27,680 bases of DNA from a virus. The position numbers and the translations under genes were made by a program. The notes beneath the pieces are model-generated. The model worked only from the letters and a program-made list of their open reading frames with translations. It was not told the origin of the DNA and searched no databases. This document shows, piece by piece, positions 677 through 26,635 of this stretch (position 1 is the first letter of the stretch; each line of letters starts with the position of its first letter). The DNA lies in the IMG/VR virus record IMGVR_UViG_3300042429_000674, positions 1 to 27,680 of that record. One strand, 5' to 3'.

Positions 677-727
677 TTCACAATTCTCCCATATTTTTAT
701 TGGTTTGAAGGACAATAAATGATAACA

Positions 728-13400: not shown

Positions 13401-15313
13401 TCATCATTGAAATACATTTTTGGATACTCTCCAGCGAGAAATCCGACTACATCCGTTCTGGATAACGCATTTTTAAGCGACTCAAGGTCAATCCCATCGC
13501 CAGCCTTTGCCATAAGACTCATCACCATTCCGCTAGTGAGGTCTCTAATATTCTCCACCCTTACAGGCTCGCCCTTGTCGTTGAGGACAGTAATGAAACC
13601 GTTGGTTCTAATCTGTCGTTCTGCTTCTCGGTTGAAAGCCTGCATTTGAATAGTGTGGGCAATCTCGTGCTTCATAATATGTCGCGCAAATGCTCGTTCT
13701 TCAACCATTGCCGCAAGCTGCTTTGAATGCCCGTCAACGGTAACCAAGAAGTCAGTTAAAGCAGTTGCTCTTTCTGAATCGGTTTTACCACCAACAAAAT
13801 CAATCCTCATTCTTTCGCCTGGAGCAAGACTTGGTATTAATGCTTCCTGATTATTCATTATCTCGGGAATATCAACATATATAACGCTCATCACGCGTTT
13901 GCTGTCTGGCGATGTGTACCCACCAGTAGATGCTTCGTCCATGCGTGGGTCGTCAGGACTTTTAACTTGAAAATCTATACGTGCAATAGTTCTCATATGT
14001 TCTGGGTCAGCAATGAATGAGTCAAGAGCCGATTCAAGTAGAGCTCTTTCGGTTGTGTACCAGCGCTCTGTGTCTGCTGCAATCAAGCTCTTTTGACGCT
14101 CTGGAGTTAGGCCTGAAAAGCCCGGAACGTGCGCAAGTCTTGCTTTTACTATCTTGTCAATGTCCTCTGCGGATAGTCTTGTGCTTGTATCTATCGTCCA
14201 TGCACCGCTGTCTCTCAGCTTCTGGAAAACCTCAAATACGTCGTCGTTTGTTTTTATCTTTTCATCTGTTCTGATTACCCCAAGCGAGTCCATCAGGCTT
14301 GCGATGTTTATGTCCTGCTGAGCAAGCTTGTCTTGAGCGCGAATCATTCCATCAACAAATACCCTGCTATTTCTGTCGCTGAGGCTCGCTTCACGCCACT
14401 TTTTGATGTTCTTGATTCTTTTGCCGTTTTCATCACGCCATACGGTTCTACCGATTCCCGGTATTGCTCCGTTATCAAGCCATGATAGAAACTCAAAAAG
14501 TTTTTTTGTTGTGTGTTTTACACCAGTTTCTTTGCTGACATCAATCCCACTTGCCATCCTTTTAGCAAAGTCGAATATCTCTGATGCTGAAATTCCGAAA
14601 CAGTTTGTTCCTGCATTGTCGGTGAACTGGTTTGCCGCAGGTGTACCTGGTGGGCATCTAAACTTTCCATTTTCATCAACAATGATTCCAAATGCGCTGG
14701 CAGCCCTAGCAATTAGAGACCTTCCTCTTTGCCCAATCGTTCTGCCTGGAAGCCTTTTTTCACTGTAGCCAGAAGGGTTGACAGTCTTTTCTCCGTTAAG
14801 ACTAAATGGGTCAAGAGTTTGTTCTGATTCTTCGATTATCTCATCAGTTTTTTGGTTGACCTTATATTTTCTTATTCGTAGTTTTGGTTTTGCTGCGAGG
14901 ATTTTTGCATACTCGTCAGCTGAAACAGAACGTGGCTCATCGACCCATCCAAAGTTTGGTTTCTTTACTGCAGTATTCCGCAATTTAACTGATGGGAAAA
15001 GATTGAGGATTTTGCCTTCTTCCCACTTTTGACCTGGAAGATAGTTGTACCCGTTTAGACGTTCAACCATTCCAGGCGTTCCGCCTTTATTGGTCCTCTT
15101 TTTCCCGTCGGTGTCTTTGTATGTCTCGTTACCTGTTGCGCCATCAAGCGCCTTTACAGACAGCCCGGCGTTTAGCGTTGGCCTTGTTATTGATTCAGTT
15201 ACAGCCTTCTTGAACGCAATTGCTGCGTCGTTGAGGTCTCGTCTGCCAGCGAGCGGTGATACAAGCCTCTCGGATGTGATTGTACGTGTTTTATAGAACG
15301 GCTTACCCGTCAT
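7415..15313 (-). CDS. 2632-aa polyvalent-type giant protein with zincin motif and LSSG-type sites
   Basis: The start is set at ATG 15313 (MTGKPFYKT), 16 bases after the upstream stop; the in-frame TTG at 15373 lies inside the upstream gene. The first 1615 residues hold a Cys module near 219 (RCPPGT ... FTD ... NC), a zincin motif HEIAH at 549-553 with a downstream EAAAELWAL helix that could give the third zinc ligand, long charged helical stretches, and a 112-residue tandem duplication (1250-1361, 1362 to ~1470). The last 1020 residues carry LSSG at 1613 and 1650 and FSSG at 2047 and 2295, plus a divergent LSST at 1203, which split it into unrelated modules. This matches the polyvalent-protein architecture described in phages and conjugative elements, whose parts are thought to enter the host with the DNA. 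It is probably processed in trans by the neighbouring prohead protease. Confidence 0.9.
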   Translation of the reverse strand: MTGKPFYKTRTITSERLVSPLAGRRDLNDAAIAFKKAVTESITRPTLNAGLSVKALDGATGNETYKDTDGKKRTNKGGTPGMVERLNGYNYLPGQKWEEGKILNLFPSVKLRNTAVKKPNFGWVDEPRSVSADEYAKILAAKPKLRIRKYKVNQKTDEIIEESEQTLDPFSLNGEKTVNPSGYSEKRLPGRTIGQRGRSLIARAASAFGIIVDENGKFRCPPGTPAANQFTDNAGTNCFGISASEIFDFAKRMASGIDVSKETGVKHTTKKLFEFLSWLDNGAIPGIGRTVWRDENGKRIKNIKKWREASLSDRNSRVFVDGMIRAQDKLAQQDINIASLMDSLGVIRTDEKIKTNDDVFEVFQKLRDSGAWTIDTSTRLSAEDIDKIVKARLAHVPGFSGLTPERQKSLIAADTERWYTTERALLESALDSFIADPEHMRTIARIDFQVKSPDDPRMDEASTGGYTSPDSKRVMSVIYVDIPEIMNNQEALIPSLAPGERMRIDFVGGKTDSERATALTDFLVTVDGHSKQLAAMVEERAFARHIMKHEIAHTIQMQAFNREAERQIRTNGFITVLNDKGEPVRVENIRDLTSGMVMSLMAKAGDGIDLESLKNALSRTDVVGFLAGEYPKMYFNDEYGAEHWALEAAAELWALRDLGLIYGDDIDAALEWMDDVSDGRYIDIRRRSDADGLREIEARYYENLGPDPELSGNSIAEVRERLEVAHKKELSLIEEWSQDSSTTNGDFIDALAGLEYNREAYNDAFDNLEATGESKDSPAFKNLNRKIKENNAKIALIEKKWAERFSSEDKDRRRSDVKKMRESVREKMFSEGNLRPKEMAARSRQQEIKNLQQQAEDMTEDEFVQKLADIEISLKEPGLSADDKSVLLEDKKMLRAIFKSKLEGSDDAKVWAKQRRELDTRIDEIVNPPRQQALKKTKKVKTDKAGASYAKKIQRDESLAMTEEQAIAVERLGDPELTDIGNLVDPDGNVSAVKNINRRYRRAQRSAGDLSPESETASLEDQIEKVLIPAMEAMDESSIPDDLEIEAEIYFGVTDSGFKDVSEYFDNQSFVSGRIITDESPHKPGEARDADGDVITRAGKEKTRVIVQVSKGDKGLFRTNETELGEEGALVLPPGKMKVVDVRPDGTIVLRVQEQDNVVDVLDRVSSSIGEEGPGAGQHAKGTKKKIDRVANKYVAQRRENGLSSTPSRPKREVEIEDKNVEVKRQVISAGGSFGEPPSEDYIAEIGKTPLVQPAEADIKDARDMYKARTGKEFDLSSIYLLNVEELLNYRARLYKAMLDPDFRNRDDNPYDYDGLIAEVDKTLAYRGEIVANLPKTPPRDYPYIPGTLERSPYETSIARVPLVQPAEADIKPDPVDPITGRPRLTTVFRMDVDELVNRRADVYRRLLNPDYANDRKGWQGTDRATLKSIDDELAKRGEIIANLPQPPEFDPDHVPGTKKRAPYKTSAGAALDPTTGSEVLGIPQTREERKVVRATRANMTFEDIKRVMAGESPKEVMNDMSRESLDPAVADVVARKSVEAILKDIEDAAVEFHAGIDKRPRVRMTENQLTKFADDGEFLPTETDDIVLESGPIGRRLERRLNPRTRRTAPKLSSGANIYRKIERAETFQDEDELGVKRGKEISEKPEKLSSGAIERTLKPGDLKKSPTQGFAKKEGRFGEERKAFDVYDIGGESVVFGGPTNDFEMESDTEIKNVPINPYAITGLDRTSDKGQELAEKWVAARAAHLSEGGSPGRSTNVDALLYASVRGDDDAAKEFDRLSEIGLKLIAEEREKSIEGISFSEDDLLQERKEGLDKIGVDDLYLVHETQYDPPLDADGNIILKPLSAYELTSDSGEKVTVQRHTIHFALNHMAGGHIARQQKPGSNVIVVRLRDVLENNPDSVDSLFPVDTVLTPKPGGGIKMPKGSFQVVKTTEDGDSNEMVRTALKELGAKHFFKPGEYSSSTGAESAVRRIAKGEGFNYQMHSNMPHAYIEMNASGTEEQLGRPSTLELWPQELARMSKNAQKSVGISDKFTGTTGVMVGDRFSSGRRTTNKPSKTQRVAGIAGSRATGRVLDAVLKRSGADEDTRERVKYGVNMAGALAAGGPVGFATALAVDVARRAGREVAERGLEEAVQRGKITQNQMDVAMSAVDRVAPNGLPDPVVDKLADAWTIASDFIDERVVTDENKQRLDEFGDIIRGEGAELLENAGEIVGSARDKVGKKFKKLKKKKNTEDGIGEDGISDGPDLAELRSRFGSESLPASSEYDDPFDGYNENDYTPAKTEYDPFGDSAFSSGKRAGRSSDAFRDEYNSRIGISKSTPNSAKPVSGYVVHRSHNEEKKRQIAASGKGNIGSDAIFEIGDNDVVGDGLTALGEIEVILKPEVSNRTAYGRGEALQSAHRPVAMNSNDPDDIADAIMNADGISSKKQNTEAMLHLLGAKMDKNFSSVNASMDENGKMAPVGSVDSSARSHEPFEAQILGGFKKNEVEGIHYPYSKVAKIAESEDISDVVNDRSLASKLEKLGFTPEEVAYFYSISGGKPLNTASMVKLKEYRAAKKIKEKYEGMGVGYVKFAHPQGINIENPRSYDKTASPTTRVDEIIKRNIDAEVEAELKKTLDSIRKSGQLDLMVD
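7418..8422 (-). other. Predicted unit V5: C-terminal 335-residue domain
   Basis: Residues 2298-2632. A basic start (GKRAGRSSD) is followed by an alpha/beta region with VVHRSHNEEKK, EIEVILKPEVSNRTAYGRGEAL and HEPFEAQILGGF, then a helical, charged C-terminus. The order of an Arg/His strand, a Ser/Thr strand and an E-A-Q motif loosely recalls ADP-ribosyltransferase or DUF3626-like toxins. The similarity is by eye only and weak. Confidence 0.35.
8423..9166 (-). other. Predicted unit V4: hydrophobic/amphipathic segment plus poly-Lys helix
   Basis: Residues 2050-2297. Around 2092-2122 lies a Gly/Ala-rich hydrophobic stretch (NMAGALAAGGPVGFATALAV) that could insert in a membrane or pack as a helical hairpin. 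A charged helix, a basic KKFKKLKKKK run, a GPDLAELRSR motif shared with the other giant and an acidic Asp/Tyr-rich tail follow. A membrane-active role during genome entry is a guess. Confidence 0.4.
9167..10357 (-). other. Predicted unit V3: 397-residue domain with His-rich core
   Basis: Residues 1653-2049, from LSSG to FSSG. The centre (about 1820-1925) reads DLYLVHETQYDPPLD ... LKPLSAYELT ... RHTIHFALNHMAGGH ... NVIVVRLRDVL ... FPVDTVLTPKPGGG, a compact alpha/beta sequence with conserved-looking His, Glu and Asp. I do not recognise the family. An enzymatic effector, for example of the ADP-ribosyltransferase-like class common in polyvalent proteins, is possible but not shown. Confidence 0.4.
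10358..10468 (-). other. Predicted unit V2: 37-residue peptide
   Basis: Residues 1616-1652 lie between two LSSG-Ala motifs 37 residues apart. The sequence is short, charged (both Lys/Arg and Asp/Glu) and without a recognisable fold. Its release as a peptide is inferred from the motif spacing. Confidence 0.4.
10469..15313 (-). other. Predicted unit V1 of the 2632-aa protein: zincin-containing N-terminal 1615 residues
   Basis: If the motif is cut between Ser and Gly, residues 1-1615 form the largest product. HEIAH at 549-553 is followed about 100 residues later by an EAAAE helix, as in gluzincin-like metallopeptidases fused into phage polyvalent proteins. Long Glu/Lys/Arg helices follow. The LSST at 1203-1206 may be an extra, divergent site that would halve this unit. 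Confidence 0.5.
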
Positions 15314-15329
15314 GGCGGGCCGCCCTTTC

Positions 15330-16778
15330 TTAGATTGTGTCAGTTTCTGCTTCGAGCAGCTGGAATTCAACAAGGGACTTCATGAAATCTCCATCAAGAG
15401 TTTCATCTTCCTTCTTGCTCATTCCTTCGCCACCGGCAACCCAGCCTGCTGGGATTAAGTTTTCTTTGCCGAGTTCGCGAGCGCGCTTGAGAATGTGTCG
15501 CTTTGCAGCTTCTTTATCCTTTGCGCGACCAAATGCTTGGATTGCATTTCTGAGGTCAGACTCGTTCGAAATTGGGTATGAACCATCTGGAAGCGCGTTT
15601 CCTTCTTTGGCCATCGAATCACGCTGTTCTTCTGTGAATGCGCGCTTCAACGCAATTTCTGCTGCTTCAGCTTCAATCTCTTCTGCTTCTTCTGGTTCGT
15701 ACTTGTCGTAACCAAGAACTTCGCCATCAAGAGCAACGAATACATCGTATGACTTTCCGTCAAATCCTTCGATTTCAACAGCGTATGAGTCGATGCCTTC
15801 GAAGTTGTCTGGCTCAACAGCAACTACATGACCGTCAATTGACTTGACTGCGATTTCAGCTGCATCGGTGAAGCTAATCAAATTGAGTTCATCAATTGCT
15901 GTCTTCTGTTCAAACACGCTTTCATCGAGCTTGTGCCAGCCCATAACTTCTGCAGAAGTTCCGTCGATGAATACTTCGACTGCCTTGCCATCCTTGCCCT
16001 GAACATCAATGACGAACATGTCAGCATCTGGTGAGTAACCTGAATCGATTACTTTTCCGTCGAACATTTCTTCAGCCATCCCCTCAACACTCAAGAGGCC
16101 TGGCATTCCTTTTTCTGCGATACATCCGCCTGGGCAGTTGTCGCAAACAGAAGTTACAGCAGAGTAAGACTTACGCTCAATTGCGCAGATGTAATCATGT
16201 TCGCCAAGCTCATCTGACTTCATTCCCATTGTCGCCATGCGGCGCTTGCGGAATTTTTCCATCATGATATTTTGCTTCTCGGCTTCCGCCATGTCCTCTT
16301 CATCCTCGGAGTCCATGTCGTCCTCCATCGAGCCTTTTTCTTCTTCGGACATTTCTTCTTCGTCGTCCTCTTCGGACTCCATGTCCTCTTCTTCTTCGTC
16401 CACCATCTCTTCTTCATCGCCTTTTTTCTTAAACTTCTGCATGGCGGTATTGACTTTTTCCCCGCCATCCATCATGTCTTCTTCTTCCATGTCATCCTCT
16501 TCGGACTCCATGTCTTCTTCCATGCCCATACCCTTCATTGGCTTCTTCTTTGGCATCATGCCGTACATCTTTTGCATGTCCTCTTCGGTCATGTCTTCAT
16601 CAGCGATGTCAAGGTCTGTTGCCGGTACCATCTTCATCTCTACTGGCATAGCGCCACATTTGCCGCACACCTTTGCTCCTGGAGTGAAACCGCACGCAGA
16701 TGCATCAGCTCCTTTGGCGCACTTGAGCACAGCCCCTTCGCTGTCAATACTCACTGTTGCCTTGTCGTCGTAAGCCAT
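15330..16778 (-). CDS. Acidic Cys-rich head protein with PepSY-like repeats and DUF6582-like C-terminus
   Basis: A 482-aa protein, ATG at 16778 with AAGGAG upstream. Residues C20, C29, C38 and C41 form a possible zinc knuckle. About 56-175 is an extremely Glu/Asp/Met-rich low-complexity segment. A second Cys group (YICAIERKSY ... CDNCPGGC) lies near 200-225. Two PepSY-like units follow (about 240-285 and 300-360; 'DMFVIDVQGKDGKAVEVFIDG' and 'SYAVEIEGFDGKSYDVFVALDGEVLGY'). At 394-446 is a basic module (LPDGSYPISNESDLRNAIQAF ... KRHILKRARELG) of the DUF6582 type, frequent in phage head proteins. The position directly after the protease gene and the acidity suggest a scaffolding, internal core or cargo-adaptor role; this is inference. 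It carries no LSSG motif. Confidence 0.85.
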   Translation of the reverse strand: MAYDDKATVSIDSEGAVLKCAKGADASACGFTPGAKVCGKCGAMPVEMKMVPATDLDIADEDMTEEDMQKMYGMMPKKKPMKGMGMEEDMESEEDDMEEEDMMDGGEKVNTAMQKFKKKGDEEEMVDEEEEDMESEEDDEEEMSEEEKGSMEDDMDSEDEEDMAEAEKQNIMMEKFRKRRMATMGMKSDELGEHDYICAIERKSYSAVTSVCDNCPGGCIAEKGMPGLLSVEGMAEEMFDGKVIDSGYSPDADMFVIDVQGKDGKAVEVFIDGTSAEVMGWHKLDESVFEQKTAIDELNLISFTDAAEIAVKSIDGHVVAVEPDNFEGIDSYAVEIEGFDGKSYDVFVALDGEVLGYDKYEPEEAEEIEAEAAEIALKRAFTEEQRDSMAKEGNALPDGSYPISNESDLRNAIQAFGRAKDKEAAKRHILKRARELGKENLIPAGWVAGGEGMSKKEDETLDGDFMKSLVEFQLLEAETDTI

Positions 16779-16915: not shown

Positions 16916-19900
16916 TTAACGTCTTCTTTGTGAGTTGTCGTGAAGCTGAAGAAGTTTTGTCCATTGAGTTGGAGACAAGAATCCTTTGGCTTTGAATTGA
17001 GAAACAAGGCTTTGAGCAAATCCACTCCATTTGGCATTTTCTGCCCAGCCCATTATTTCTTTTTGCATTCTTGGGGTTATGTTTTCTGGGGCTCCGTTGT
17101 TTTCTCGCCCGGAAGAGAGTTTTGTAACTGCTTCCTGACCAGAATTGGTTATTCTGCGAGCGGCTCTTCTTCCACTGCTCATAGAACCTCCACCCTTGAC
17201 TGAGTCAACGGTTTCGCTTAAGTCGTACTTCTTGTTGAGTCTGTCAACTATTTCCTGAACTTCTTCATCAGAGTAACGAAGCGCTTTTCCAACACGAGGG
17301 CTGAATTTTGGCTGCTTGCCTTGTTCAAAGGTCTTTAGACGGCTGATTATCTTTGCCGCACCAAGCACCTCATCGATATCGTCCCACTTAACCTTTTTGC
17401 CACTTCTTTCAACGGCGTCAACAACGTTTCTCCAGAGCGAGAATTGGGGAATTGAGTTGTCAAACTTGGTGCCGTCTTCACCGAATACTTCGCCAGCGCT
17501 TGGGATTATGCCTTGATTAACAAGTTGTTCAACTATTCCTGTTGGGACGCCTTCTTGTTTCCATTTTTTGAGCTGTATTGGTGTCGGCGTGAACGTCACT
17601 CCGTCAACTTCAAACGTCAGGGCTTCAGATAGTTCTGCATCTGACTCGACGCCAAGTGAATCTGAAAGCGCGGAAACAGAGAATCCGCCCTTGGAAATTT
17701 CTTGTGCAACGGTTTGCTCAGTCTCAACCATGTCTGCAGGGGACATGAGTCCAGCCATGTAGATTCCCTCGTCAAGGAAGTCATCATATTGCTCACGAGT
17801 GAGCTGGTTTCCGTCCTTGTCGTACCAGTACGGCTTAGCACCAAAGCCCCAAATTCCATCAATTATGTCGCTTGTCTGGAAAGGGTTTGAACTGTCAGAG
17901 AATGCTCTGTCAATCAAGGCGTAAGCATCAGCTTCGGAAATGCCTGCTCCTTCTTTGAACATCTTCTCTGCTTCTATCTCGCTTATACCGAGGTAATCTG
18001 CAATTTGTTCTTTGCTCAATGGCTTGCCGTTTTCGTCTTTCAGAATTTGCTGCAGCTTCCTGGCGTCAAGCATCCACTTACCATCTGGAGACCTGTCGTT
18101 ATTTTCTGAAGTTTTTCCAAACTTTATTTTGACATCAGCTGCCAACTCTCGGCCAACCTTGTTTCTTTGCAATTCACCAGGCATCCTGAGTCTTCCGGAA
18201 CTGAATTTTTCAGTGCCGAATTCGTCTTTGCTTGGTCCAGGTCGCTTCTTGCCCGGAATTGTTGCTGCTCTCTGTCTTACGCCATCAGCAAACGCCTGTC
18301 TGTCGGCATCTGACATTGGTCGTCGTTTTGAACCCTGTGTTCTTCTGTTTCTTCCAGAGCTAAGTCCTGGAGCATCTCCTGGCTCCAGGAAGTCGGCTAC
18401 ATCGCCTTCAACCATGTCGAAGTTAGAGAGGTTGCTAGGTGAGAAAATGTCTTCAGGAAGACCGCCCTTGCTCTCTCTGTTTAGTGATACTCCGCTTTCC
18501 TCGAAAGACTCACCTATCCCAAAGAGGTCGCTTAGCTCTCTCTCTAGCCTGTTGATTGCACCGTAGTACATGTCGCTGAGTTTTGCAGCAAAATCTTCCG
18601 GCTTTGTTGTGTTGTTGATTGAGTCAACCAAGTCTTCAATTTCATTTATTTGACTCTGCAGTGAGGAGCGAATGAACGAATCGTCGATTGCCTCGATATC
18701 TTCAAGTACTCCTTGGATTTCCTGAGCATCAAATCTCATCGAATCAACGGCATCAGCGGCATCCCCGTCAGCATCGTCTATATGCTTTTGCATTGCTGAC
18801 TCGAAGTCAACCTTGCCGCCATCTCTCCAGCTGTTTCTGTACGAATTTTCTAGAAGGCCTATCTTTTCGCGCAAATCATCGGTTTGCTGATTCAGGAGTG
18901 CAAGATTCTCTACATGGTCTTCCAGCTGTGATTCGATGTCATATATTGCTGAATCAAGTCTGTCAATAAATTCCATATCATCATCTGAAATTTGTCCAGT
19001 CAAATCATCGATGCTTGGTGTACTTTGCTTTGTGATTTTCTTACCATCAAGAGCTGCGCGGATGTATTCATCCCTCGTAGCAACTAAGTCATCGATTGCG
19101 TCAATAGCTTTTTTATGGTCTTCTAGAGCAATCCTTCCACGTCCACCATTTGGAAGGAAGCCAATTTTCCCATCAAGAGCATCCTGTGTTACTGGATTGT
19201 TGAACTGCCCGCTCTTTTCAAACTCGGACTTGATGTCTTCTGGTGACCTTCCAGAACTCAGGCGTCCACCGCCAGGAATCCTGCTAGAAACCAAACTTCT
19301 CGTTCTTCTTCCAGAAGAGAAAGACGTTCCTTGAGGGACTCCAGGTTGTGTTGGATTGATTGGGGCAACTGCGCCGTCAATCAAGCCCTCAATCTTGTGG
19401 AGACTGAAACTTCTATACTGACCCGATTCCTCATCAAGTCCTATGAAGTATATTCCTCCGCCCTTCTTGGTCATCATTCCGGTTGGATAAACCATTCGTG
19501 GCTTGCCGTTGTAAGTAAATGAGATGACCTCACCGTTTCTGCGTATGGAATCAAAGTCATACTTTTCAACAGGAACCGCAGGCAAGTTTGCCGCGATGTG
19601 CCTTGAGTTTGAGCCAGCCTCATCCGTTCTCTTGAGAGCGTCTGTGACTAAGCCAATTTCCTCAGCAGGAGTTTCGTCGTATCTAGAGCGAACCCCGGAT
19701 GAAAGTCTGCTGTTTTCTTTCATCAATTCAGCCTGGATATCGCTAGCTTCGTCTGCCCAGTCTTCTGCGCTCCAGTCAAGGCGTGATTCATCTATCTGCG
19801 CCATCATCCGGACATATTCCTGTCTGTCTGCGCGCTCTCTTGAAGCTCTCTTGTAATTTTCGTACTCTGCGTCTCGGCGTGCTTCCTCTTCTTTGAGCAT

Positions 19901-22900
19901 TTCGGCAATTTTTTCAATGTCGGTTTCTGCTTTAAACTTGCGTTGCCATTCTATGCGGCTGTTTTCATAAGAGTCAGCCCATCGTGCTGCATCTTCTGGG
20001 GACTTAAAACCCTCCGAGCCAACTCCGGCAATGTCCCAGTCGATTTCGTCGTCTTCACCGACACCGTCCATGACCATCAATTCAGCAAACCACTCACCGG
20101 ATTCATCCTGGCTTACATTCCACTGACTCGGGCGCGAGCGTCCACCTAGGAAGGCGCTTGCCTCAAACCAACTTCTGTCGCCATCGCGATAGCCTCTGCG
20201 CATATCGAATTCAGTGAGAACCTCATCACCAAATGCGCCCATTTCATCAGCAAGAGTTCTTACTGTCCCCTCAGGATTTAGCACATACTTGCTACGTCTT
20301 CCAGACGAGAGAGCAGCAGGTGCTCCGTCATACGTAGCATCCCTGTTTCCAGGTATGACTCCAGCCTCAGCAACCTTTCTACCAAGCTTTTTGCTCATCG
20401 ATGGAGAGAGGGATATTGCGTAGTCGTGCGCTTTCTGCGCTTGCTCAAAAGCATTCTTAAGTGCATCTGGGTCAGACTTGAGTTTCTTGAGCCATGATGC
20501 AAGGTATTGAGCATGGTCTTCTCTTGGCTCAGGGGTCAAGCCGTGAGCAGTCATAAAGAATGCTGATGCTATTTCCGCAATAAGCTCTTCTTGTGCATAT
20601 TCAGGGCTTCCAAAGTCTCCCATGTGGTCTCTGTTCAGACGGCTCTTGCCACCCGTCCAGTGCATCAACTCATGAGCAAAGACTGCATAATAAGCTTCCT
20701 TGCTCTTAAATGACGAAAAAGGAGGAAGTGTTATTTCGTCTGTTGATGGTCTATAGAACGCTCTATCTCCACCGTGATTGACTACTGCACCGATTTCTGA
20801 AAGTGCTTGTTCAAGTTCTGCAGCACGCTCTTCTTCTGAGAGTTGAGGCATCTTGAATTGTTCTTTATCAATTCCGTCAATCTGGTCGAGGTTGAAAACA
20901 TATCCTGTTTTAAAGAAAATTGAACCAGGCTTTATTTCATTGCCATCAGCATCTTTCTTTGCAGGAATGATTGTTGGGATGATTATCATCGTCCCCTTTT
21001 CACCCTTACGAACAGTTCCGCCTTTTTCTTTCCACTGATTAAATCCAGCCCAAAGCCCTGTCTCGTAATTCATTGCATCCTTCTGGAACATCAACATCAA
21101 CGAGTTGATTCCAGAGTATGGGCGATTGTTGTTCATAGCATTACGTGGAAGAGAAGCATCTCTGTGCCAAGGGAACTCCCACTTGCCACCTTCTGTCTCT
21201 GCTTTTTGTATTTGCTCGATTAGCTTTTCTTGAACGCTTCTATAAACCTCGTCCAACTTCCCTGAAGACAAACGCTGTCCAGGTTCCATGCCCTCAAGCG
21301 GACTTACGTACTTTTTGCTACCCGAACCAAGCGTGTCTCCGCGTTGTTTTTCAACCCAGGACTTTGCTTCCTTGTCTCTATCACGCAAAAGTTTCATGTG
21401 CTTTTGCTCGCGTCTTCTCACAGTTTCACGGCTGAGGCCAAGAGCCTTGGCAGTCTGGTCAAGCGATTCTCCACCCATACGACGGTCGTAAATTGACTCG
21501 TTCAATGCAAGCTCTGATGCTTCCTCTGCTGCCATACGTGCTTGGTCTTCGCGGTAAGACTCAACCTCGTCAAAGTCTGGTCGTTGCAGTGTTCCACGTT
21601 CGCGAGCCATGTGGCGCATTTCTGCCTGTCGCACATCTTCGCGTGTCATTCCAAGAGCCGAAGCAGTGTCCATGAGCGATTCCCCACCCATGCGGCGCTC
21701 AAATATCTCCCTATCAGAGACACCCAGCTCCTCTTGGTTCTTTCTCTTTCCAGAGGACAGATTTCTTGCTTGACGATTGTCGTACTGTGTTTCTAGATAA
21801 TCCTGATACATCTGTGACGCAGCGTACGCAACGTCTTGAGCAAATCTTTCTCCACCGGCACCATACTCGTTAATGTATTCATCCCGTGTTTCGCCGTCGG
21901 TATCCATCCAGTGGTCAAGGATTCTCTCTGCCTCCATGCCGGTGTGGCCAATCTCTCCCAATTCCCAAAGCTGGTCTTTTCTCACTGCTTCCTCTGGGTC
22001 TTCGTATCTCTCGAACCCAGTTCTAGTACGTCTGCCGGAGCTGAGACCCTGACGATTTTTGTCTGCGAATTGTCTTTGTCGGATTTGACCTAGTTCTCGG
22101 CGTAGTTTTGACTTGTAGTTGTCGCTAAGACCAAGTTCAAGGCTGCGTAAGATTTTTTCTGCTCTGGCGGCATCTCGGATTGGCTGAAATGCTTTAAACT
22201 TTTCATCGGCCAAATCATAAACGACATCTTCGTCGACCTTGTTGTCGTCAATCTGTATAAGAGTAAATCCTTCATTTTCTTTGTTGTTAGGCTTGCTCCA
22301 GATGTCTTCGTCTGCGATTAAGAAACCAGTTCCATTATCGGTATCAAAATCTATCCCATAACCGTCGTTGATGTATTCTGGCGTGTCTAGCTGCTTACCA
22401 TTTTCGTCATGCGTAATCACGATGTCGATTGAGCCGGCGTATGGCCGTGGAGTGTCTCTTCTTGAGCTGTATTCTCCCTCGACTAGTTCGATTTCGAAAT
22501 CGGAACCATTAACGATTACACCCCTTCGCCCGTCATTGAGGGTGACTGTGTTCCCAATAAAATCCCTTCCGTTTGCTGAAGAAATAGTGTCAAGGTCAAC
22601 TACGAACTCATCCGCATACGGACCACTGTCGTCCCATCTACCGGTAGGGAAAGAAGCGTCCATATCCCCGCCGTATTCATCAAATAACGCAGGCTTTGAA
22701 TCTCTGGACATTGCTTCGTCAAGAACTTCTTTTCTCCTAGAAGAAAGACGAGAACCATCAGTGTCTTGATTTTTTTCTCCTGCAATGAATTTCTTTATGT
22801 CGTCAATCGAGATGTTCCCAGTCATGTCTTCGTAGTACTGGTCGATAACATCTTGCTCTGATGGCACGACGTCTGGCTCTGAGCCATACGGTCCAACTGG

Positions 22901-25900
22901 TTCAAGTCCCCAATCGGTTCCAAGTCTTACATCTTCCAGGTCGTCAGAAGTTGGCGCTCCATATATGGCGTCAACCACTTCTTCCTTGCCATAATCGTTG
23001 TATACATCAATTATTTCGTTGTGAGTTACGCCTGTATCAGGGTCAACATAGTCTGGGTGTATTTCAGGATTTTTCTCTAGTAAGTCGCTAAAAAACTCGT
23101 CGTTATCATTGAGTGTTAATTGGTTGTTTCTGTCTCTTTTTGCTTTTCCAGTATTCCAGTCGCTATCCCAGCCACGATTCCTCCACGCATAGGTGGCTTG
23201 AAGGATGCCCTTCTTTTCGTCATTGTCAAGATTTTCCCATGACCGCAATTCTGGAGTTTTATCGGAACGACCAGAAGAAAGGCGTGAAGAATCAGGCATA
23301 TACTCATCAGCACCACTCATGCTCTCAATTATCTTGTCGTAATCTTTTTCTGCCCATCTCTTCGCAGCTGAAGGACTGCTGAATGTTCTATCGACATCTT
23401 CATCAAGTGCGTTTTGTCCACCATTTCTGTAGATATCAGAGAAACGGGTTATTGAGTACTTACCCTTGCCCTCGCTATTGATTCGGTACATGCCGTCAAT
23501 ATCTGGCGCGTCCATCTCAAAACCGTCTTCTGTTTCTGTCCAGTTATTTGTTGGGGTTTTCCCATAAAACACGTAGTCGTCTATGACGTCTCTGGCACTC
23601 TTTGGCTTCTTTTTGCCAGAAGAAAAACCAGGTTTTTCTTTTAGAGTTCCATCAGCATTAGCGAGAAATGTTTCTTTACCTTTATTTCTCTTGACTCGGT
23701 CGAGACGCCTCTTCTCAATTCCCTCAGGCGAGAAAAGTCTTTCTCGTGCTGCTCTCGCTCTCTCGGTTCGTGCAGCCATTTCCTCATTGGAAACCCCTTG
23801 AATATCAGCTAATGCTCTTTGACGAGCCCGCTCTTCGGCTCTTTCGGCAGGAGTCAGACCTTCGTCTTCATCATCTTCTGCATCCTCGTCAATTACGTCA
23901 TCTTCAATAACGGGTCTTGGTTTATAGTTCCCGTTTTCATCCCACATTAGGAGGGATTCTTTTCCGTCACCCTTCGCTTTTGCTCTCTCGTAATTGGCAG
24001 CGCGACGCAGACGGCGCTCTTCTTCCCTCTCCTCCGGGGTTGGCTTCTTTTTGTCACCAGAAGAAAGCTTGCCTTCTGAATTGAGTTTGCGAAGTTCCTG
24101 AAGGTCTGGTCCTTTTTCTGTCCCTGAACCACCCTTCTTTTTTTTCTTCTTCAGCTTGTCAACATCCAAAAGACCAATGTCATTTAGGTACTCGTTGAGG
24201 GTGGCGATGTCTTCTTTTGCCCAGTCCTGCGTGTCTGGGTACTTGGACTTAACATCTGCTCTCAGGGCTGATTCAATTCCGTCCCAGTTATCTGAGTCAT
24301 CTCTGCTGTGTGCATCAAGATAGGCACTAACTGATTTTGCATAGCTCGAATACCAGTTACTGTATTCATTGGAAGCTTTTTGCTTCTCGTTAAACTTTTC
24401 AGGACGCTTTCTTACAGAGTCGCCATTCCACATAACACGTGCTTGGTTGACTCCGATTTCGCGACCACGGAGATAGTCAGAACTTAAATTGTTATCTGCG
24501 TTGTAGCGTGGAACTTCTTCCCAGCCAAGACCCTGCTCATCCCATGCTTTAGCGATTGCTTCGTGGTCTACGCGCTTCTGATTTTCTTCAGCATTTGGGA
24601 ATTGCTTTTCCATGTCGGCAGAACGGTCTGCATGGCGACGCTCATTACGCTTGCCAGAAGAGAGTTTTTCTGTATCAGCAAGTTCGGCTCGCTGACTCAT
24701 CTGCCTCTTTGATGGCTTCGGTGAATTGATGGAGCCAGGACCAGAAGGCGTTGGGTCGGGTTGTTCCCATGGCGTGCCGTCGCCGACCATGCTGTTTAGG
24801 TTTGCGTCTTCGACTGTTCTTGGGTCCCAGCCTGGAGGCGGATTTATACCGGAACCACGAGAGCGCCGACCCCTTTTACCGCCAAGATTTGGTCGGTCAA
24901 TTCCTCGGCTTGCAATCGCACGACCGATACGGCGGCCAAGTGCTTTTTCTTCTATTTGCTCAGAAGCTATTTTTTTTTTTAGAAATTCATAAGCAGAAGA
25001 TGCAGCTCTAGTTATAGCGTCCTTCGACTCTTCGCTGAGCGGTGAGTTAATCACGATTCCGTACTCGTTGACGGTTGTGTCAATTCTGTGGTAATCAAGA
25101 ACTGGGTCAATTACCGACTTGAACTCAAATGCGTCTTCAAGATTTACTGGGATGACGTATGACGAGTCTTGAGCCAAGAATGGGTCGAGACCCTTTTCCT
25201 CAAGCTCTTGCTCCTCTACGCCCCACTCCTCAAGAGTCTTATAAGAGCGACGCTTTCTACGGCGCTTCTTCACCGTGTTACGCAAAACCCCAAGAATGAA
25301 TTCTCCAGGGTACTTCGCTTCGATGTCCTCAACCATCTTGATTTCTTCGTCATCAAGAATGTCGTTGTATTCCTTCTTGCCAAATCCGACTACAACACCA
25401 TCTGGGATGATTGCGAATCTGCACTTGGCTTCATCTTCAACCTTGAAGTCAAGAATCTTGCACTTGCCTTCACCTTGGTAAAGAACACAGTTTGAGCACT
25501 TAACGCCAATGTCTTTTACTTTGTTTTCTGCCGGAGGATAGTATCCAGCCCAAATTCCGTCGCCGTCTTCGTCAAACTTTCCGTACTTGCGAGCGATACG
25601 AACAAGCGATTCGGCAAGCTCGCTCTCTTCTGCACCAAGCTCTGGCTTTTTGTTCTTGTCAGAACCTTCGTACTCAACAGGCGCCAATGGAACCATGACC
25701 ATTCCGCCATTAACTGGCTTCATTGCTACAGGCATTGCCATTGCAGGGTTATTTGTCGACGGCTTATTCGGTTTGCCCATAATCCCAGGCATTGGCGAAG
25801 GGCCAGACTGGACTGGCGGTTTTGCCTGTTCTGCGTGAATTAATTCTGGCTTACCAAACATGTACTCGCTTCCAGTGAAGTGGTAACCAATTCTGAATTT

Positions 25901-26635
25901 TCCTTTTCCTGGCTTCACAAAGACCACAGAGTTCTCAGTCGCTTCAACAACCATGACTGGTCCTGCGGCGCGGCGTGAAAGTTCGGCAACCACTCCTGCA
26001 AGCTGTGGTCCACTTATTCTTTGTGAAACACCTTCGTCAAACAGTCCGTCTCGTCGTGGCTCTGATGATGGAGCGCTTATTGACATAGGCATCATCCCGT
26101 GCGTCTTCTCTTCATCGCTCTTAACCGAAATTGTTCCGGTTAGCTGATTGGCTCCATGGAGAACGGGTGAAACTTCGTAGAGTTCAACTTCGTAAAGAAC
26201 GTTTGCCTGAAGGTTTTCATCGTATTGAGCTCTGAGAGTTTTGTAGCCGATTGACCACTCTTGTTCTTCACCAAAGAAGGCGACGTTTGCGAATGCTTCT
26301 CTGCCTTTTTCTGACTGAAGATTGAATTGAACTTTCGCGTAAAGACCGCCGATTCCAGCCATTTTCATCTTCATTGGAAGTCTTGGGTCTGATGCTGGAA
26401 CTTCGTAAATTTCCAGAACTTTACCAATTGGGTCATTCCAGTTGTGGCCCCATACAACACGCGGCTTGCGACGCTGAAGGCTCTTAGCAAATGCACCAGT
26501 AGCGCAGATATCTCCTACAGAGTCCTTGTTTCCAATCCCCGAAACGAAACATTCAACAATGCCCTCTAGTTCATCGAGCTTGATGAGACCATTGGAGGCC
26601 TTGTATTGAATATTTCCGAAGTTAGAGTTTGGCAT
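16916..26635 (-). CDS. Prohead protease-headed polyprotein, 3239 aa, with 16 predicted internal cleavage sites
   Basis: ATG at 26635 with AAGGAG upstream. Residues 1 to ~175 are an HK97/U35-type prohead protease: GHNWNDPIG gives catalytic His64 and EWSIGY gives Ser128. Typical proteases of this family have about 160-230 residues, so this is a fusion with some 3000 extra residues. Copies of [L/F/M]-S-S-[G/R] start at residues 658, 857, 1004, 1119, 1297, 1531, 1626, 1789, 2109, 2311, 2439, 2459, 2758, 2811, 3152 and 3173; the next residue is Arg or Lys in 14 of 16. They separate unrelated modules: tandem HTH, ArdC-like domain plus zincin, WYL, coiled coil and basic peptides. The codons differ at each copy. 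I infer that the protease matures the chain during head assembly and that the products stay inside the capsid. A stable uncleaved giant is the alternative. Confidence 0.9.
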   Translation of the reverse strand: MPNSNFGNIQYKASNGLIKLDELEGIVECFVSGIGNKDSVGDICATGAFAKSLQRRKPRVVWGHNWNDPIGKVLEIYEVPASDPRLPMKMKMAGIGGLYAKVQFNLQSEKGREAFANVAFFGEEQEWSIGYKTLRAQYDENLQANVLYEVELYEVSPVLHGANQLTGTISVKSDEEKTHGMMPMSISAPSSEPRRDGLFDEGVSQRISGPQLAGVVAELSRRAAGPVMVVEATENSVVFVKPGKGKFRIGYHFTGSEYMFGKPELIHAEQAKPPVQSGPSPMPGIMGKPNKPSTNNPAMAMPVAMKPVNGGMVMVPLAPVEYEGSDKNKKPELGAEESELAESLVRIARKYGKFDEDGDGIWAGYYPPAENKVKDIGVKCSNCVLYQGEGKCKILDFKVEDEAKCRFAIIPDGVVVGFGKKEYNDILDDEEIKMVEDIEAKYPGEFILGVLRNTVKKRRRKRRSYKTLEEWGVEEQELEEKGLDPFLAQDSSYVIPVNLEDAFEFKSVIDPVLDYHRIDTTVNEYGIVINSPLSEESKDAITRAASSAYEFLKKKIASEQIEEKALGRRIGRAIASRGIDRPNLGGKRGRRSRGSGINPPPGWDPRTVEDANLNSMVGDGTPWEQPDPTPSGPGSINSPKPSKRQMSQRAELADTEKLSSGKRNERRHADRSADMEKQFPNAEENQKRVDHEAIAKAWDEQGLGWEEVPRYNADNNLSSDYLRGREIGVNQARVMWNGDSVRKRPEKFNEKQKASNEYSNWYSSYAKSVSAYLDAHSRDDSDNWDGIESALRADVKSKYPDTQDWAKEDIATLNEYLNDIGLLDVDKLKKKKKKGGSGTEKGPDLQELRKLNSEGKLSSGDKKKPTPEEREEERRLRRAANYERAKAKGDGKESLLMWDENGNYKPRPVIEDDVIDEDAEDDEDEGLTPAERAEERARQRALADIQGVSNEEMAARTERARAARERLFSPEGIEKRRLDRVKRNKGKETFLANADGTLKEKPGFSSGKKKPKSARDVIDDYVFYGKTPTNNWTETEDGFEMDAPDIDGMYRINSEGKGKYSITRFSDIYRNGGQNALDEDVDRTFSSPSAAKRWAEKDYDKIIESMSGADEYMPDSSRLSSGRSDKTPELRSWENLDNDEKKGILQATYAWRNRGWDSDWNTGKAKRDRNNQLTLNDNDEFFSDLLEKNPEIHPDYVDPDTGVTHNEIIDVYNDYGKEEVVDAIYGAPTSDDLEDVRLGTDWGLEPVGPYGSEPDVVPSEQDVIDQYYEDMTGNISIDDIKKFIAGEKNQDTDGSRLSSRRKEVLDEAMSRDSKPALFDEYGGDMDASFPTGRWDDSGPYADEFVVDLDTISSANGRDFIGNTVTLNDGRRGVIVNGSDFEIELVEGEYSSRRDTPRPYAGSIDIVITHDENGKQLDTPEYINDGYGIDFDTDNGTGFLIADEDIWSKPNNKENEGFTLIQIDDNKVDEDVVYDLADEKFKAFQPIRDAARAEKILRSLELGLSDNYKSKLRRELGQIRQRQFADKNRQGLSSGRRTRTGFERYEDPEEAVRKDQLWELGEIGHTGMEAERILDHWMDTDGETRDEYINEYGAGGERFAQDVAYAASQMYQDYLETQYDNRQARNLSSGKRKNQEELGVSDREIFERRMGGESLMDTASALGMTREDVRQAEMRHMARERGTLQRPDFDEVESYREDQARMAAEEASELALNESIYDRRMGGESLDQTAKALGLSRETVRRREQKHMKLLRDRDKEAKSWVEKQRGDTLGSGSKKYVSPLEGMEPGQRLSSGKLDEVYRSVQEKLIEQIQKAETEGGKWEFPWHRDASLPRNAMNNNRPYSGINSLMLMFQKDAMNYETGLWAGFNQWKEKGGTVRKGEKGTMIIIPTIIPAKKDADGNEIKPGSIFFKTGYVFNLDQIDGIDKEQFKMPQLSEEERAAELEQALSEIGAVVNHGGDRAFYRPSTDEITLPPFSSFKSKEAYYAVFAHELMHWTGGKSRLNRDHMGDFGSPEYAQEELIAEIASAFFMTAHGLTPEPREDHAQYLASWLKKLKSDPDALKNAFEQAQKAHDYAISLSPSMSKKLGRKVAEAGVIPGNRDATYDGAPAALSSGRRSKYVLNPEGTVRTLADEMGAFGDEVLTEFDMRRGYRDGDRSWFEASAFLGGRSRPSQWNVSQDESGEWFAELMVMDGVGEDDEIDWDIAGVGSEGFKSPEDAARWADSYENSRIEWQRKFKAETDIEKIAEMLKEEEARRDAEYENYKRASRERADRQEYVRMMAQIDESRLDWSAEDWADEASDIQAELMKENSRLSSGVRSRYDETPAEEIGLVTDALKRTDEAGSNSRHIAANLPAVPVEKYDFDSIRRNGEVISFTYNGKPRMVYPTGMMTKKGGGIYFIGLDEESGQYRSFSLHKIEGLIDGAVAPINPTQPGVPQGTSFSSGRRTRSLVSSRIPGGGRLSSGRSPEDIKSEFEKSGQFNNPVTQDALDGKIGFLPNGGRGRIALEDHKKAIDAIDDLVATRDEYIRAALDGKKITKQSTPSIDDLTGQISDDDMEFIDRLDSAIYDIESQLEDHVENLALLNQQTDDLREKIGLLENSYRNSWRDGGKVDFESAMQKHIDDADGDAADAVDSMRFDAQEIQGVLEDIEAIDDSFIRSSLQSQINEIEDLVDSINNTTKPEDFAAKLSDMYYGAINRLERELSDLFGIGESFEESGVSLNRESKGGLPEDIFSPSNLSNFDMVEGDVADFLEPGDAPGLSSGRNRRTQGSKRRPMSDADRQAFADGVRQRAATIPGKKRPGPSKDEFGTEKFSSGRLRMPGELQRNKVGRELAADVKIKFGKTSENNDRSPDGKWMLDARKLQQILKDENGKPLSKEQIADYLGISEIEAEKMFKEGAGISEADAYALIDRAFSDSSNPFQTSDIIDGIWGFGAKPYWYDKDGNQLTREQYDDFLDEGIYMAGLMSPADMVETEQTVAQEISKGGFSVSALSDSLGVESDAELSEALTFEVDGVTFTPTPIQLKKWKQEGVPTGIVEQLVNQGIIPSAGEVFGEDGTKFDNSIPQFSLWRNVVDAVERSGKKVKWDDIDEVLGAAKIISRLKTFEQGKQPKFSPRVGKALRYSDEEVQEIVDRLNKKYDLSETVDSVKGGGSMSSGRRAARRITNSGQEAVTKLSSGRENNGAPENITPRMQKEIMGWAENAKWSGFAQSLVSQFKAKGFLSPTQWTKLLQLHDNSQRRR
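16919..17110 (-). other. Predicted unit U17: 64-residue C-terminal helical domain
   Basis: Residues 3176-3239. The core 'WAENAKWSGFAQSLVSQFKAKGFLSPTQW' has the pattern 'F-x2-S-[LI]-x2-Q-[FY]-x3-G-x-LS-x2-Q-W' that I associate with small helical domains in phage DNA-processing proteins. It could act as a terminal tag or binding domain. Confidence 0.45.
17111..17173 (-). other. Predicted unit U16: 21-residue basic peptide
   Basis: Residues 3155-3175, from MSSG at 3152 to LSSG at 3173. It has four Arg, one Lys and one Glu. It is similar in size and charge to the 20-residue U12. Confidence 0.4.
17174..18196 (-). other. Predicted unit U15: 341-residue protein with possible HTH
   Basis: Residues 2814-3154. 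After a basic start (LRMPGELQRNKVG), the stretch PLSKEQIADYLGISEIEAEKMF looks like a helix-turn-helix. Several repeat-like helical segments follow, including a second candidate (FSVSALSDSLGVESDAELSEAL) and 'YSDEEVQEIVDRLNKKYDL'. A DNA-binding or adaptor role is possible; family unknown. Confidence 0.45.
18197..18355 (-). other. Predicted unit U14: 53-residue basic peptide
   Basis: Residues 2761-2813. It has fourteen Arg/Lys against six Asp/Glu, with GKKRPGP and SKRRP runs and one short helix. It is a candidate DNA-condensing internal peptide. Confidence 0.4.
18356..19252 (-). other. Predicted unit U13: 299-residue acidic coiled-coil protein
   Basis: Residues 2462-2760. From about 2550 to 2690 heptad-like helices dominate (DRLDSAIYDIESQLEDHVEN and INEIEDLVDSINN), rich in Asp, Glu, Ile and Leu. 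It looks like a structural or scaffold-like internal protein. No enzymatic motif. Confidence 0.5.
19253..19312 (-). other. Predicted unit U12: 20-residue basic peptide
   Basis: Residues 2442-2461, between FSSG at 2439 and LSSG at 2459. It has five Arg and no acidic residue, with a Pro-Gly-Gly-Gly stretch. Possibly a DNA-neutralising peptide, or simply a spacer trimmed away. Confidence 0.4.
19313..19696 (-). other. Predicted unit U11: WYL domain (128 residues)
   Basis: Residues 2314-2441, with the core at about 2363-2420. GEVISFTYNGKPRMVYPTGM, then GGIYFIGLDEESG and YRSFSLHKIEG, follow the WYL order: a strand pair, '[IV]-x-[LY]-D-x2-[ST]-G' and 'R-[ST]-F-x-[LI]-x-[KR]-I'. WYL domains bind nucleic-acid-type ligands and regulate phage defence systems. 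I see no attached HTH, so it would be a free WYL protein. Confidence 0.65.
19697..20302 (-). other. Predicted unit U10: 202-residue beta domain plus charged helix
   Basis: Residues 2112-2313. A small strand domain (QWNVSQDESGEWFAELMV ... GFKSPEDAARWADSY) like that in U4, then a long Glu/Arg/Lys helix and an acidic Trp-rich tail. No enzymatic motif. Confidence 0.4.
20303..21262 (-). other. Predicted unit U9: ArdC-like N-domain plus zincin metallopeptidase (320 residues)
   Basis: Residues 1792-2111. The N-terminal ~120 residues match the ArdC/TraC-type ssDNA-binding domain (VYRSVQEKLIEQI, WEFPWHR, NNRPYSGINSLML, TGLWAGFNQWKEKGGTVRKG). The rest is a zincin with HELMH at 1988-1992 and a downstream EELIAEIASAF helix supplying the third ligand. 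This pairing is the classic antirestriction ArdC layout and a recurrent polyvalent-protein module. The length is close to that of free ArdC proteins, which supports its release as an independent product. Confidence 0.8.
21263..21751 (-). other. Predicted unit U8: tandem helix-turn-helix protein (163 residues)
   Basis: Residues 1629-1791. Two copies of one HTH: about 1643-1676 (RRMGGESLMDTASALGMT then REDVRQAEMRHM) and 1713-1747 (RRMGGESLDQTAKALGLS then RETVRRREQKHM). The 'S-L-x2-T-A-x-A-L-G-[ML]-[TS]-R-E-x-V-R' pattern resembles sigma region 4 or similar DNA-binding HTHs. A 36-residue acidic helix separates them. A sequence-specific DNA-binding protein carried in the virion is the inference. 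Confidence 0.65.
21752..22036 (-). other. Predicted unit U7: 95-residue helical product
   Basis: Residues 1534-1628. Basic start (GRRTRTGFERY), then acidic amphipathic helices (WELGEIGHTGMEAERILDHW and AQDVAYAASQMYQDYL). A small helical protein of unknown role, released only if both flanking sites are cut. Confidence 0.4.
22037..22738 (-). other. Predicted unit U6: 234-residue beta-rich product with possible extra site
   Basis: Residues 1300-1533. It contains a small barrel-like stretch (GNTVTLNDGRRGVIVNGSDFEIELVEG), followed by YSSRR at 1389-1393, a relaxed copy of the motif that could be a seventeenth site, then an acidic beta region and a basic helical tail. Function unknown. Confidence 0.4.
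22739..23272 (-). other. Predicted unit U5: acidic Trp/Tyr-rich 178-residue product
   Basis: Residues 1122-1299. It has a WENLDNDEKKGILQATYAW helix and several Asp/Tyr/Pro-rich loops (VDPDTGVTHNEIIDVY), and ends at the only LSSR-type site in this protein. No family recognised. Confidence 0.4.
23273..23617 (-). other. Predicted unit U4: 115-residue beta domain with RWAE helix
   Basis: Residues 1007-1121. A basic start, then a small strand-rich domain ending in FSSPSAAKRWAEKDY. A similar ending (FKSPEDAARWADSY) occurs in U10, suggesting the same small fold used twice. Function unknown. Confidence 0.45.
23618..24058 (-). other. Predicted unit U3: internally duplicated charged helical 147-residue product
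   Basis: Residues 860-1006. Two related halves, each with a P-E-x-[RI]-E-x2-R-L helix followed by K-G-[KD]-x-E-[ST]-[LF]-L and an N/D-G turn, flank a very acidic stretch (EDDVIDEDAEDDEDEG). The sequence is Arg/Glu-rich throughout. Function unknown. Confidence 0.45.
24059..24655 (-). other. Predicted unit U2: charged helical 199-residue product
   Basis: Residues 661-859. A His/Arg/Lys-rich start is followed by Trp/Tyr-containing helices (AYLDAHSRDDSDNWDGIESAL), a KLKKKKKK run and GPDLQELRKL. The last two elements recur in the same order in the 2632-aa protein. No known family. Confidence 0.45.
24656..26635 (-). other. Predicted unit U1: prohead protease plus Cys4 and basic regions (residues 1-660)
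   Basis: The protease domain (1 to ~175) is followed by a beta-rich region, a Pro/Met-rich linker, a Cys4 module at C380, C383, C392 and C405 (C-x2-C-x8-C-x12-C), a very basic run (KKRRRKRRS, about 455), an alpha/beta stretch ending near 565, and an Arg/Gly-rich segment. The Cys4 module could bind zinc or an Fe-S cluster. No motif copy lies within this unit, so the protease would be released with about 480 extra residues. Confidence 0.7.

Follow-up and report, generated by a model that had tools for sequence, protein, structure and literature searches.

A capsid-type protease heading a giant phage protein with a repeated site at module borders: a predicted polyprotein of tailed phages

Background

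In the polyproteins of positive-strand RNA viruses, one chain contains its own protease and repeated linker sites. The locus described here differs from these in that it belongs to a double-stranded DNA (dsDNA) tailed phage, its protease is of the capsid-maturation type, and the domains that it joins are unrelated. It is a 3,239-amino acid (aa) open reading frame (ORF) in IMG/VR record IMGVR_UViG_3300042429_000674, a 27,680-base virus contig that has the genes described here on its minus strand and is called, over its full length, the window below. The ORF begins with a Peptidase_S78 domain and continues with 16 copies of a short motif. Among phages, the closest described systems are the polyvalent proteins, giant multidomain proteins with ArdC-N, MPTase and GNAT domains that are thought to enter the host with the DNA, and which their authors likened to RNA-virus polyproteins freed by embedded peptidases (Iyer et al. 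2017, PMC5512222). In phage P1, DarA and DdrB are antirestriction proteins of the head that undergo proteolysis as the head assembles (DarA by Pro) and are co-ejected with the DNA (PMC12810830, PMC5512222). In SPN3US, the prohead protease gp245 has many head substrates with a shared short motif, and some propeptides have several copies of it; in gp53, there is evidence for cutting at three or more of these (PMC10052503).

The arrangement in the window departs from each of these. The assemblin-like peptidase of polyvalent proteins was described as always C-terminal, whereas the S78 protease of the window is N-terminal, and the available text of that source describes no repeated consensus site, lineage switch or trans substrates (PMC5512222). 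In P1, DarA and DdrB are encoded by separate genes and DarA loses one N-terminal part of about 9 kDa, unlike the many-site single chain found here (PMC12810830, PMC5512222). The 14 sites of SPN3US are spread over nine separately encoded substrates, nearly all for removal of an N-terminal propeptide, and no protease-fused cargo is described in the available text (PMC10052503). As far as these sources go, the polyvalent content (PMC5512222), the enzyme class, and the use of one protease with a shared motif (SPN3US, PMC10052503; P1, PMC12810830) are already known. A search of titles and abstracts in the open-access literature, with subscription papers outside its scope, found no phage polyprotein with repeated prohead-protease sites. 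Three features are new as far as that literature shows: an N-terminal protease is fused to a chain in which a repeated consensus site marks the borders of modules, the cassettes between the sites are shuffled, and the separately encoded tape measure has the site variant of its lineage.

Results and discussion

A protease-headed chain with a repeated site

The ORF, its protease domain and the sites found by motif scan are as follows.

16916..26635, minus strand: putative polyprotein ORF, 3,239 aa, ATG start, no internal stop, 16 sites, 17 predicted pieces
26117..26560, minus strand: Peptidase_S78 prohead protease domain, residues 26-173 (Pfam, PHROGs, fold)
24653..24664, minus strand: site 1, LSSG, residue 658
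24056..24067, minus strand: site 2, LSSG, residue 857
23615..23626, minus strand: site 3, FSSG, residue 1004
23270..23281, minus strand: site 4, LSSG, residue 1119
22736..22747, minus strand: site 5, LSSR, residue 1297
22034..22045, minus strand: site 6, LSSG, residue 1531
21749..21760, minus strand: site 7, LSSG, residue 1626, model confidence (pLDDT, see below) under 50
21260..21271, minus strand: site 8, LSSG, residue 1789, pLDDT about 70, coil just before a helix
20300..20311, minus strand: site 9, LSSG, residue 2109, pLDDT under 50
19694..19705, minus strand: site 10, LSSG, residue 2311, pLDDT under 50
19310..19321, minus strand: site 11, FSSG, residue 2439, pLDDT under 50
19250..19261, minus strand: site 12, LSSG, residue 2459, pLDDT under 50
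18353..18364, minus strand: site 13, LSSG, residue 2758
18194..18205, minus strand: site 14, FSSG, residue 2811, end of cassette E, which was found in 8 genomes
17171..17182, minus strand: site 15, MSSG, residue 3152
17108..17119, minus strand: site 16, LSSG, residue 3173, preceding the NNGAP cassette G

The N-terminal domain matched PF04586 (Peptidase_S78) with an E-value of 3.4e-9 (37.5 bits, cut-off 21) and the head maturation protease family phrog_80 at 2.9e-25. His64 and Ser128, the catalytic residues expected for this family, were invariant in 44 sequences. A model of the S78 domain (residues 18-161) aligned with T4 gp21 (5jbl) over 124 residues with a Z score of 9.1 and a root-mean-square deviation of 3.1 (VIA-align), and the protease model matched herpesvirus proteases with Z scores of 5.6-6.8. 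The domain is thus like these proteases in fold; neither T4 gp21 nor the herpesvirus proteases are known to be part of a fusion with many cargo proteins. As a whole, the model of residues 1-665 was poor (mean pLDDT 54.9) and gave no significant match in Foldseek, and a profile search of PDB sequences (profile A2) found no match.

The motif [LFM]SS[GR] occurred 16 times in the ORF, where composition predicts 0.377 copies and 300 shuffles gave a mean of 0.377 and a maximum of 3, which excludes a chance origin of the sites. The residue after the motif was Arg in 10 of the 16 copies and Lys in four, the exceptions being Asp (after the site at 857) and Val (after that at 2311). The 16 Ser-Ser pairs were encoded by 11 codon combinations, indicating conservation at the level of the protein, and the differing codons among the copies ruled out a DNA-level repeat. 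An earlier note on this DNA, made from the letters alone, had described a prohead protease at the start of the ORF, 16 motif copies at exactly these residues, well under one copy expected by chance, and Arg or Lys nearly always following (14 of 16); all four statements were borne out. It did not give the strand, and its inventory was complete for this ORF but stopped too early, since four more sites are found in a 2,652-aa ORF and an LSSR in the capsid protein.

In a structure model of residues 1616-2475, five of the six sites had a predicted local distance difference test score (pLDDT) under 50 and the sixth (residue 1789) was in a coil at about 70, a placement equaled by 242 of 10,000 rotations.

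Sites separate exchangeable modules

The domains recognized between the sites of the window were the following.

21383..21493, minus strand: Sigma70_r4-like helix-turn-helix (HTH), residues 1715-1751, cassette D (Pfam, above cut-off)
20300..21259, minus strand: ArdC cassette, residues 1793-2112, with ArdcN (1796-1914) and MPTase-PolyVal (1940-2062) (Pfam, above cut-off)
19385..19540, minus strand: WYL-like domain, residues 2366-2417 (20.0 bits, where Pfam requires 21.8)

The single chain therefore contains at least two unrelated domains of the conflict repertoire, among S78, Sigma70_r4, ArdcN and MPTase-PolyVal. Residues 5-281 of the ArdC cassette aligned with residues 9-284 of the 297-aa ArdC of plasmid R388, so the cassette at 1793-2112 corresponds to nearly all of a stand-alone protein. 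In relatives, the cargo domains included UvrD-like helicase, exonuclease, KTSC and GNAT.

The earlier note had placed the sites in linkers between unrelated domains and suggested checking in related phages whether the motif tracks domain borders, a check that did not refute its reading. In ten polyproteins, none of the 122 sites was inside a compared Pfam stretch (one best stretch per family, including some matches below the Pfam cut-off, and for KTSC in G011 one of five stretches), while rotations placed 13.8±3.3 sites inside and never reached 0 in 2,000. Homology blocks gave the same picture: in 23 polyproteins (432 of 481 blocks used, after rows of less than 60 aa or with at least 60% identity were dropped), 28.6% of block ends were within 20 aa of a site, compared to 12.4±1.8% in rotations (0 of 300 as high), and blocks straddled sites 275 times, compared to 675±48. 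Splitting the chains at the sites produced 212 segments, among which 31 cassette types recurred in varying order; the shortest segments between adjacent sites were 11-20 aa. The ArdC cassette occupied the ninth position in the window but the second in G020, and it closed the chain in G023 and G029. An RNase_T cassette was found in polyprotein 1 of one phage and in a second giant protein of two others.

Conservation and lineage variants of the site

Relatives were collected from IMG/VR viral contigs by searches with the protease domain (best 80 of 597 loci kept) and with the capsid protein (best 80 of 421 loci kept); because relatives were found via the protease, that the chains are headed by a protease holds by construction. 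From the 80 protease ORFs, 21 under 1,000 aa were excluded and 59 were kept, several of them near-copies. At least three copies of [LFM]SS[GR] were present in 54 of these 59 ORFs of 1,000 aa or more, with 547 copies seen and 16 expected, so the motif is kept in homologues. The longest chains reach 4,902 aa (G011). All of these chains come from metagenome contigs.

The sequence of the site depended on the lineage: [R/K][L/F]SSG[R/K] in the window clade, [S]L[S/A]SG in G021 and G022, RGMAS[R] in G007, and GFAS in G009 and G011. The cis sites were collected with lineage-specific regular expressions, a choice that by itself fixes the Ser and hydrophobic positions of the logos. In the SLSSG lineage, the residue after the site was most commonly Ser, Glu or Ala and not basic. 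The switch could be followed at a single place: cassette G was preceded by KLSSGR in the window, GFASSGKR in L190, and GMASR in L192 (KLSSGRENNGAP / GFASSGKRANNGAP / GMASRNNGAP). The fixed [L/F/M]-S-S-[G/R] motif of the earlier note describes this ORF well but is one of at least four lineage variants.

A further variant, G[L/F]xSRR, was read by eye in L281, a contig from a metagenome-assembled genome (MAG).

Matching sites in separately encoded proteins

The motif also occurred outside the protease ORF, in the neighboring 2,652-aa ORF.

7415..15373, minus strand: 2,652-aa ORF with four sites (ORF list and motif scan)
10466..10477, minus strand: LSSG, residue 1633 (motif scan)
10355..10366, minus strand: LSSG, residue 1670 (motif scan)
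9164..9175, minus strand: FSSG, residue 2067 (motif scan)
8420..8431, minus strand: FSSG, residue 2315, directly before a conserved C-terminal domain (motif scan)

Four sites compare with 0.24 expected and a maximum of 3 in 1,000 shuffles. The distribution over a larger genome was examined in contig G028 (172.5 kb, 217 ORFs), which encodes the 2,652-aa protein of the window at 100% identity. The 20 matches to [LFM]SSG[RK] in G028 were confined to four ORFs: the polyprotein ends (10 and 6, some of them counted twice because the contig ends appear to overlap), the 2,652-aa protein (2) and the tape measure (2). The looser [LFM]SSG gave 30 matches, of which six were single matches in six other ORFs. 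In G007 (88 ORFs), G[FML][SA]S[RSGQ] matched 14 times: ten in the polyprotein, and one each in the tape measure, the 2,652-aa family and two further ORFs. In G022, [FLM]SSG matched 25 times: ten in the polyprotein, eight in a second giant ORF, two in the 2,652-aa family, and five singly. In G011, G[FLM][SAT]S matched 37 times: 20 in the polyprotein, six in a second giant ORF, three in the tape measure, two in the 2,652-aa family, and six singly. The census of G009 was less clean, with 19 matches in nine ORFs, nine of them in the polyprotein and some not sites.

Matrices built from the polyprotein sites of four lineages (the RK matrix from five of the twelve genomes labeled RK) were run over proteins picked by homology only. 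The matrix of the protein's own lineage scored best in 18 of 18 cases, nine tape measures and nine members of the 2,652-aa family, the one of the window included. Among site-bearing genomes that had not been grouped, the best matrix for the tape measure was RK in G031, G030, G024, G026 and G020, S-LSSG in G025, and GFAS in G013 and G032. The second giant proteins (P2) were found through the motif, so that their own-matrix result (6 of 6) is partly circular and stands outside the 18. Matching site variants in separate genes, together with the co-occurrence described below, suggest that a single activity specific to each lineage works in trans, and the leading protease is the simplest candidate for it.

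Functionless Ser/Gly-rich linker composition between the modules of a polyvalent protein would also place sites in the low-confidence linkers of the model. It is very improbable as an explanation, because the motif keeps a set order (hydrophobic, small, Ser), seldom occurs in other ORFs of the genome, and switches in step across separate genes.

The second giant proteins are encoded far from the protease gene (G011, 93698-103153, locus L280; G022, 155108-162856, locus L237) and have the site variant of their own phage. They carry RNase_T, and that of G011 also has a GNAT match and zincin-like motifs seen by eye.

Tape measure and capsid protein

The tape measure matched nothing in Pfam (at E 0.01) or in PHROGs, and tblastn against phage records gave no match either. 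Its name comes from its place in the gene order, which is as in phage DalanDe, with a sheath-like gene (Pfam match below threshold) on one side and a baseplate J gene on the other. Tape measures were compared between 17 polyprotein phages (including G013, which ends at a contig edge, and the near-copies G030 and G031) and seven phages with a short, site-less protease gene. An N-site, [LFM][SA]S[GRS] at residues 30-85, was found in 14 of the 17 and in none of the seven, and a mid-site at residues 550-800 in 16 of the 17 and one of the seven (Fisher 0.00035 each, with kinship ignored). Elsewhere in the tape measures, intervals of the N-site size had a match in 12 of 443.

A lone copy near the N-terminus of the tape measure resembles a targeting signal as much as a cut, and the motif might be a tag for recruitment or packaging, to which some part of the capsid, scaffold or tail binds, on a chain that stays whole or is cut elsewhere. 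The basic residue after the motif in the window (14 of 16) would suit such a tag. It is nonetheless improbable, since the residues after the site are not basic in the SLSSG lineage, neighboring sites are as little as 11-20 aa apart, and the placement of copies at module borders, with none inside the compared domains, fits separation better.

The capsid protein contains one possible site.

1338..2714, minus strand: HK97-fold major capsid protein, Phage_capsid at residues 167-451
2424..2435, minus strand: LSSR, residue 94 of the capsid protein, at the border of delta-domain and N-arm, possible site

In the window clade, the sequence at this delta-border is L[ST]S[RHS]E. It did not hold up across lineages as further proof of specificity, as described below.

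A proposed polyprotein, and evidence on both sides

We propose that the N-terminal S78-type capsid protease recognizes a hydrophobic residue, Ser or Ala, and Ser, followed in the window lineage by Gly and then Arg or Lys. Cutting at these sites in flexible linkers would produce about 17 proteins from one chain; the cut bond may be the one after the third residue, Ser, which is a guess. In trans, the protease would cut the 2,652-aa protein, the tape measure at two places (around residue 36 and around the middle) and, in some relatives, the second giant protein. Protease specificity and sites would have drifted together between lineages. The freed cargo, here ArdC and the sigma-like HTH and WYL-like proteins, would be carried in the virion and delivered with the DNA. 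We put at roughly 75% the probability that the S78 domain cuts the linker sites, so that about 17 proteins are freed, and also acts in trans on the 2,652-aa protein and the tape measure. That the products are virion cargo delivered at infection is, on balance, probable in view of what the chains encode (ArdC, transcription factors, helicase) and of the parallel with polyvalent proteins and P1.

Several observations weigh against this proposal. Five of the 59 long ORFs had only zero or one [LFM]SS[GR] (one of these, L068 of G032, instead has three GL[AS]SS), and the polyproteins of G013, G014, G020, G024 and G025 had only four or five sites by the regular expressions used. The motif classes follow the protease tree (six changes, where five is the least possible), so there were few independent events, and the relatedness of the phages weakens every count. 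The tape measure of G007 scored 11.8, no higher than phages without sites, which reach 13.0. In the 2,652-aa family, the own matrix won only narrowly for the member from G009 (14.9 versus 13.9), and intervals of the mid-site size matched elsewhere in tape measures in 5 of 41. The capsid L[ST]S[RHS]E was also found in G017 and G018, which lack polyprotein sites, and was absent from the GFAS and GMAS lineages, indicating that the capsid site does not co-vary with the motif. Finally, the tape measure is by gene position a tail protein and should be out of reach of a protease confined to the prohead. Either the protease works at an earlier stage or in a place other than the prohead, or the code is shared by a different enzyme.

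Such an enzyme could be a host protease or the MPTase zincin embedded with ArdC, with S78 only maturing the capsid. Sites in a protein outside the head and a capsid site that does not follow the lineage motif would both fit, the site variants could track host proteases, and MPTase has been proposed to process P1 DdrB (Iyer et al. 2017, PMC5512222). This is unlikely overall. Sites are present in the polyproteins of L192 and L190, in which Pfam showed no MPTase at E 0.01 (although those genomes could encode one elsewhere), so an embedded peptidase is not needed in cis and the zincin is disfavored as sole cutter in cis. In addition, none of the seven phages that have the S78 gene but no polyprotein sites had the tape-measure N-site, so the sites are gained and lost along with the polyprotein and are not a fixed feature of phage tails.

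Cutting by the leading S78 protease is also what the earlier note had proposed. The sites do behave as recognition sites separating whole modules in protease-headed chains, but cutting itself is a prediction. Two parts of that proposal were not supported: that the chain is the whole internal load of the phage, as the 2,652-aa protein, the tape measure and the second giant proteins of relatives also carry sites, and that cutting is solely a prohead event, as the site-bearing tape measure belongs to the tail.

We lean toward a broader reading, in which a family of dsDNA tailed phages has a polyprotein economy like that of RNA viruses, with a drifting cleavage code, up to about 20 exchangeable cargo proteins per chain, and a reach extending to the tape measure and a second chain; the code would serve as a recombination grid that makes any rightly flanked protein deliverable. 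If this is true, the genuine polyprotein, mostly associated with RNA viruses, would extend to tailed phages. A few residues would form a testable code that predicts the cut points, other virion substrates and the identity of each product, and many giant phage ORFs that now lack annotation could be resolved into separate proteins. Some products would be likely to act on the host at entry (ArdC, sigma-like and WYL-like factors, helicase, exonuclease). The lineage-specific codes may supply a set of orthogonal short-site proteases, and the tape-measure sites raise the question of how a capsid protease meets a tail protein.

Genome context and nearest phages

The S78 protease gene is just downstream of the portal gene and 14 kb upstream of the Phage_capsid gene; several smaller genes also lie in the window. 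The genes on either side of the protease gene are as follows.

26755-27678, minus strand: end of portal-region gene, upstream of the polyprotein ORF
15330..16778, minus strand: acidic 482-aa protein, residues 363-446 matching the C-terminus of the GMA6 protease gene product

The full-length counterpart of the portal gene in G028 matched Phage_portal. Over 84 aa, the 482-aa protein shared 57% identity with the domain that ends the protease of Gordonia phage GMA6. The separate 482-aa protein may come from the splitting of an ancestral protease-scaffold gene, and the cargo therefore appears to sit between the two halves of that gene.

By capsid protein, the nearest isolates were Gordonia and Brevibacterium phages (46-54% identity), and a megablast search with the window gave no near-identical nucleotide match among isolated phages. 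The closest isolated relatives by capsid protein and protease were GMA6, Chidiebere, Cantare and DalanDe; the repeated site was not found in these four. The proteases of these Gordonia and Brevibacterium phages are 417-484 aa, with 1,633 aa in DalanDe, all without the repeated site. In DalanDe (L005, 14943-19844), the capsid protease is located behind about 1,120 extra residues, the reverse of the arrangement in the window.

Several other features of the region were noted. DUF6321 is a stand-alone gene in the window (2-715, minus strand), and in relatives without polyprotein sites (L191, L193, L195 and L196) a DUF6321-like sequence was judged by eye to be inside the protease gene. A gene resembling aspartyl/asparaginyl beta-hydroxylase (728-1261, minus strand) is directly downstream of the capsid gene. 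The gene at 2867-3586 (minus strand) has two stretches of a DUF3721-like Cys-containing motif, which by eye also heads site-bearing proteins in G007 (77445-79778) and G009 (12457-16305). MAG contigs labeled Phycisphaerae and Gammaproteobacteria hold the relatives L281, L282 and L283; these three GTDB matches in MAGs of unrelated phyla are probably mis-binned phage contigs. In the late region of Chidiebere (L002, 7731-11734), a gene annotated as a VIP2-like ADP-ribosyltransferase adjoins one for a 971-aa protein annotated as helix-turn-helix, in which a zincin-like HELGH motif was seen by eye.

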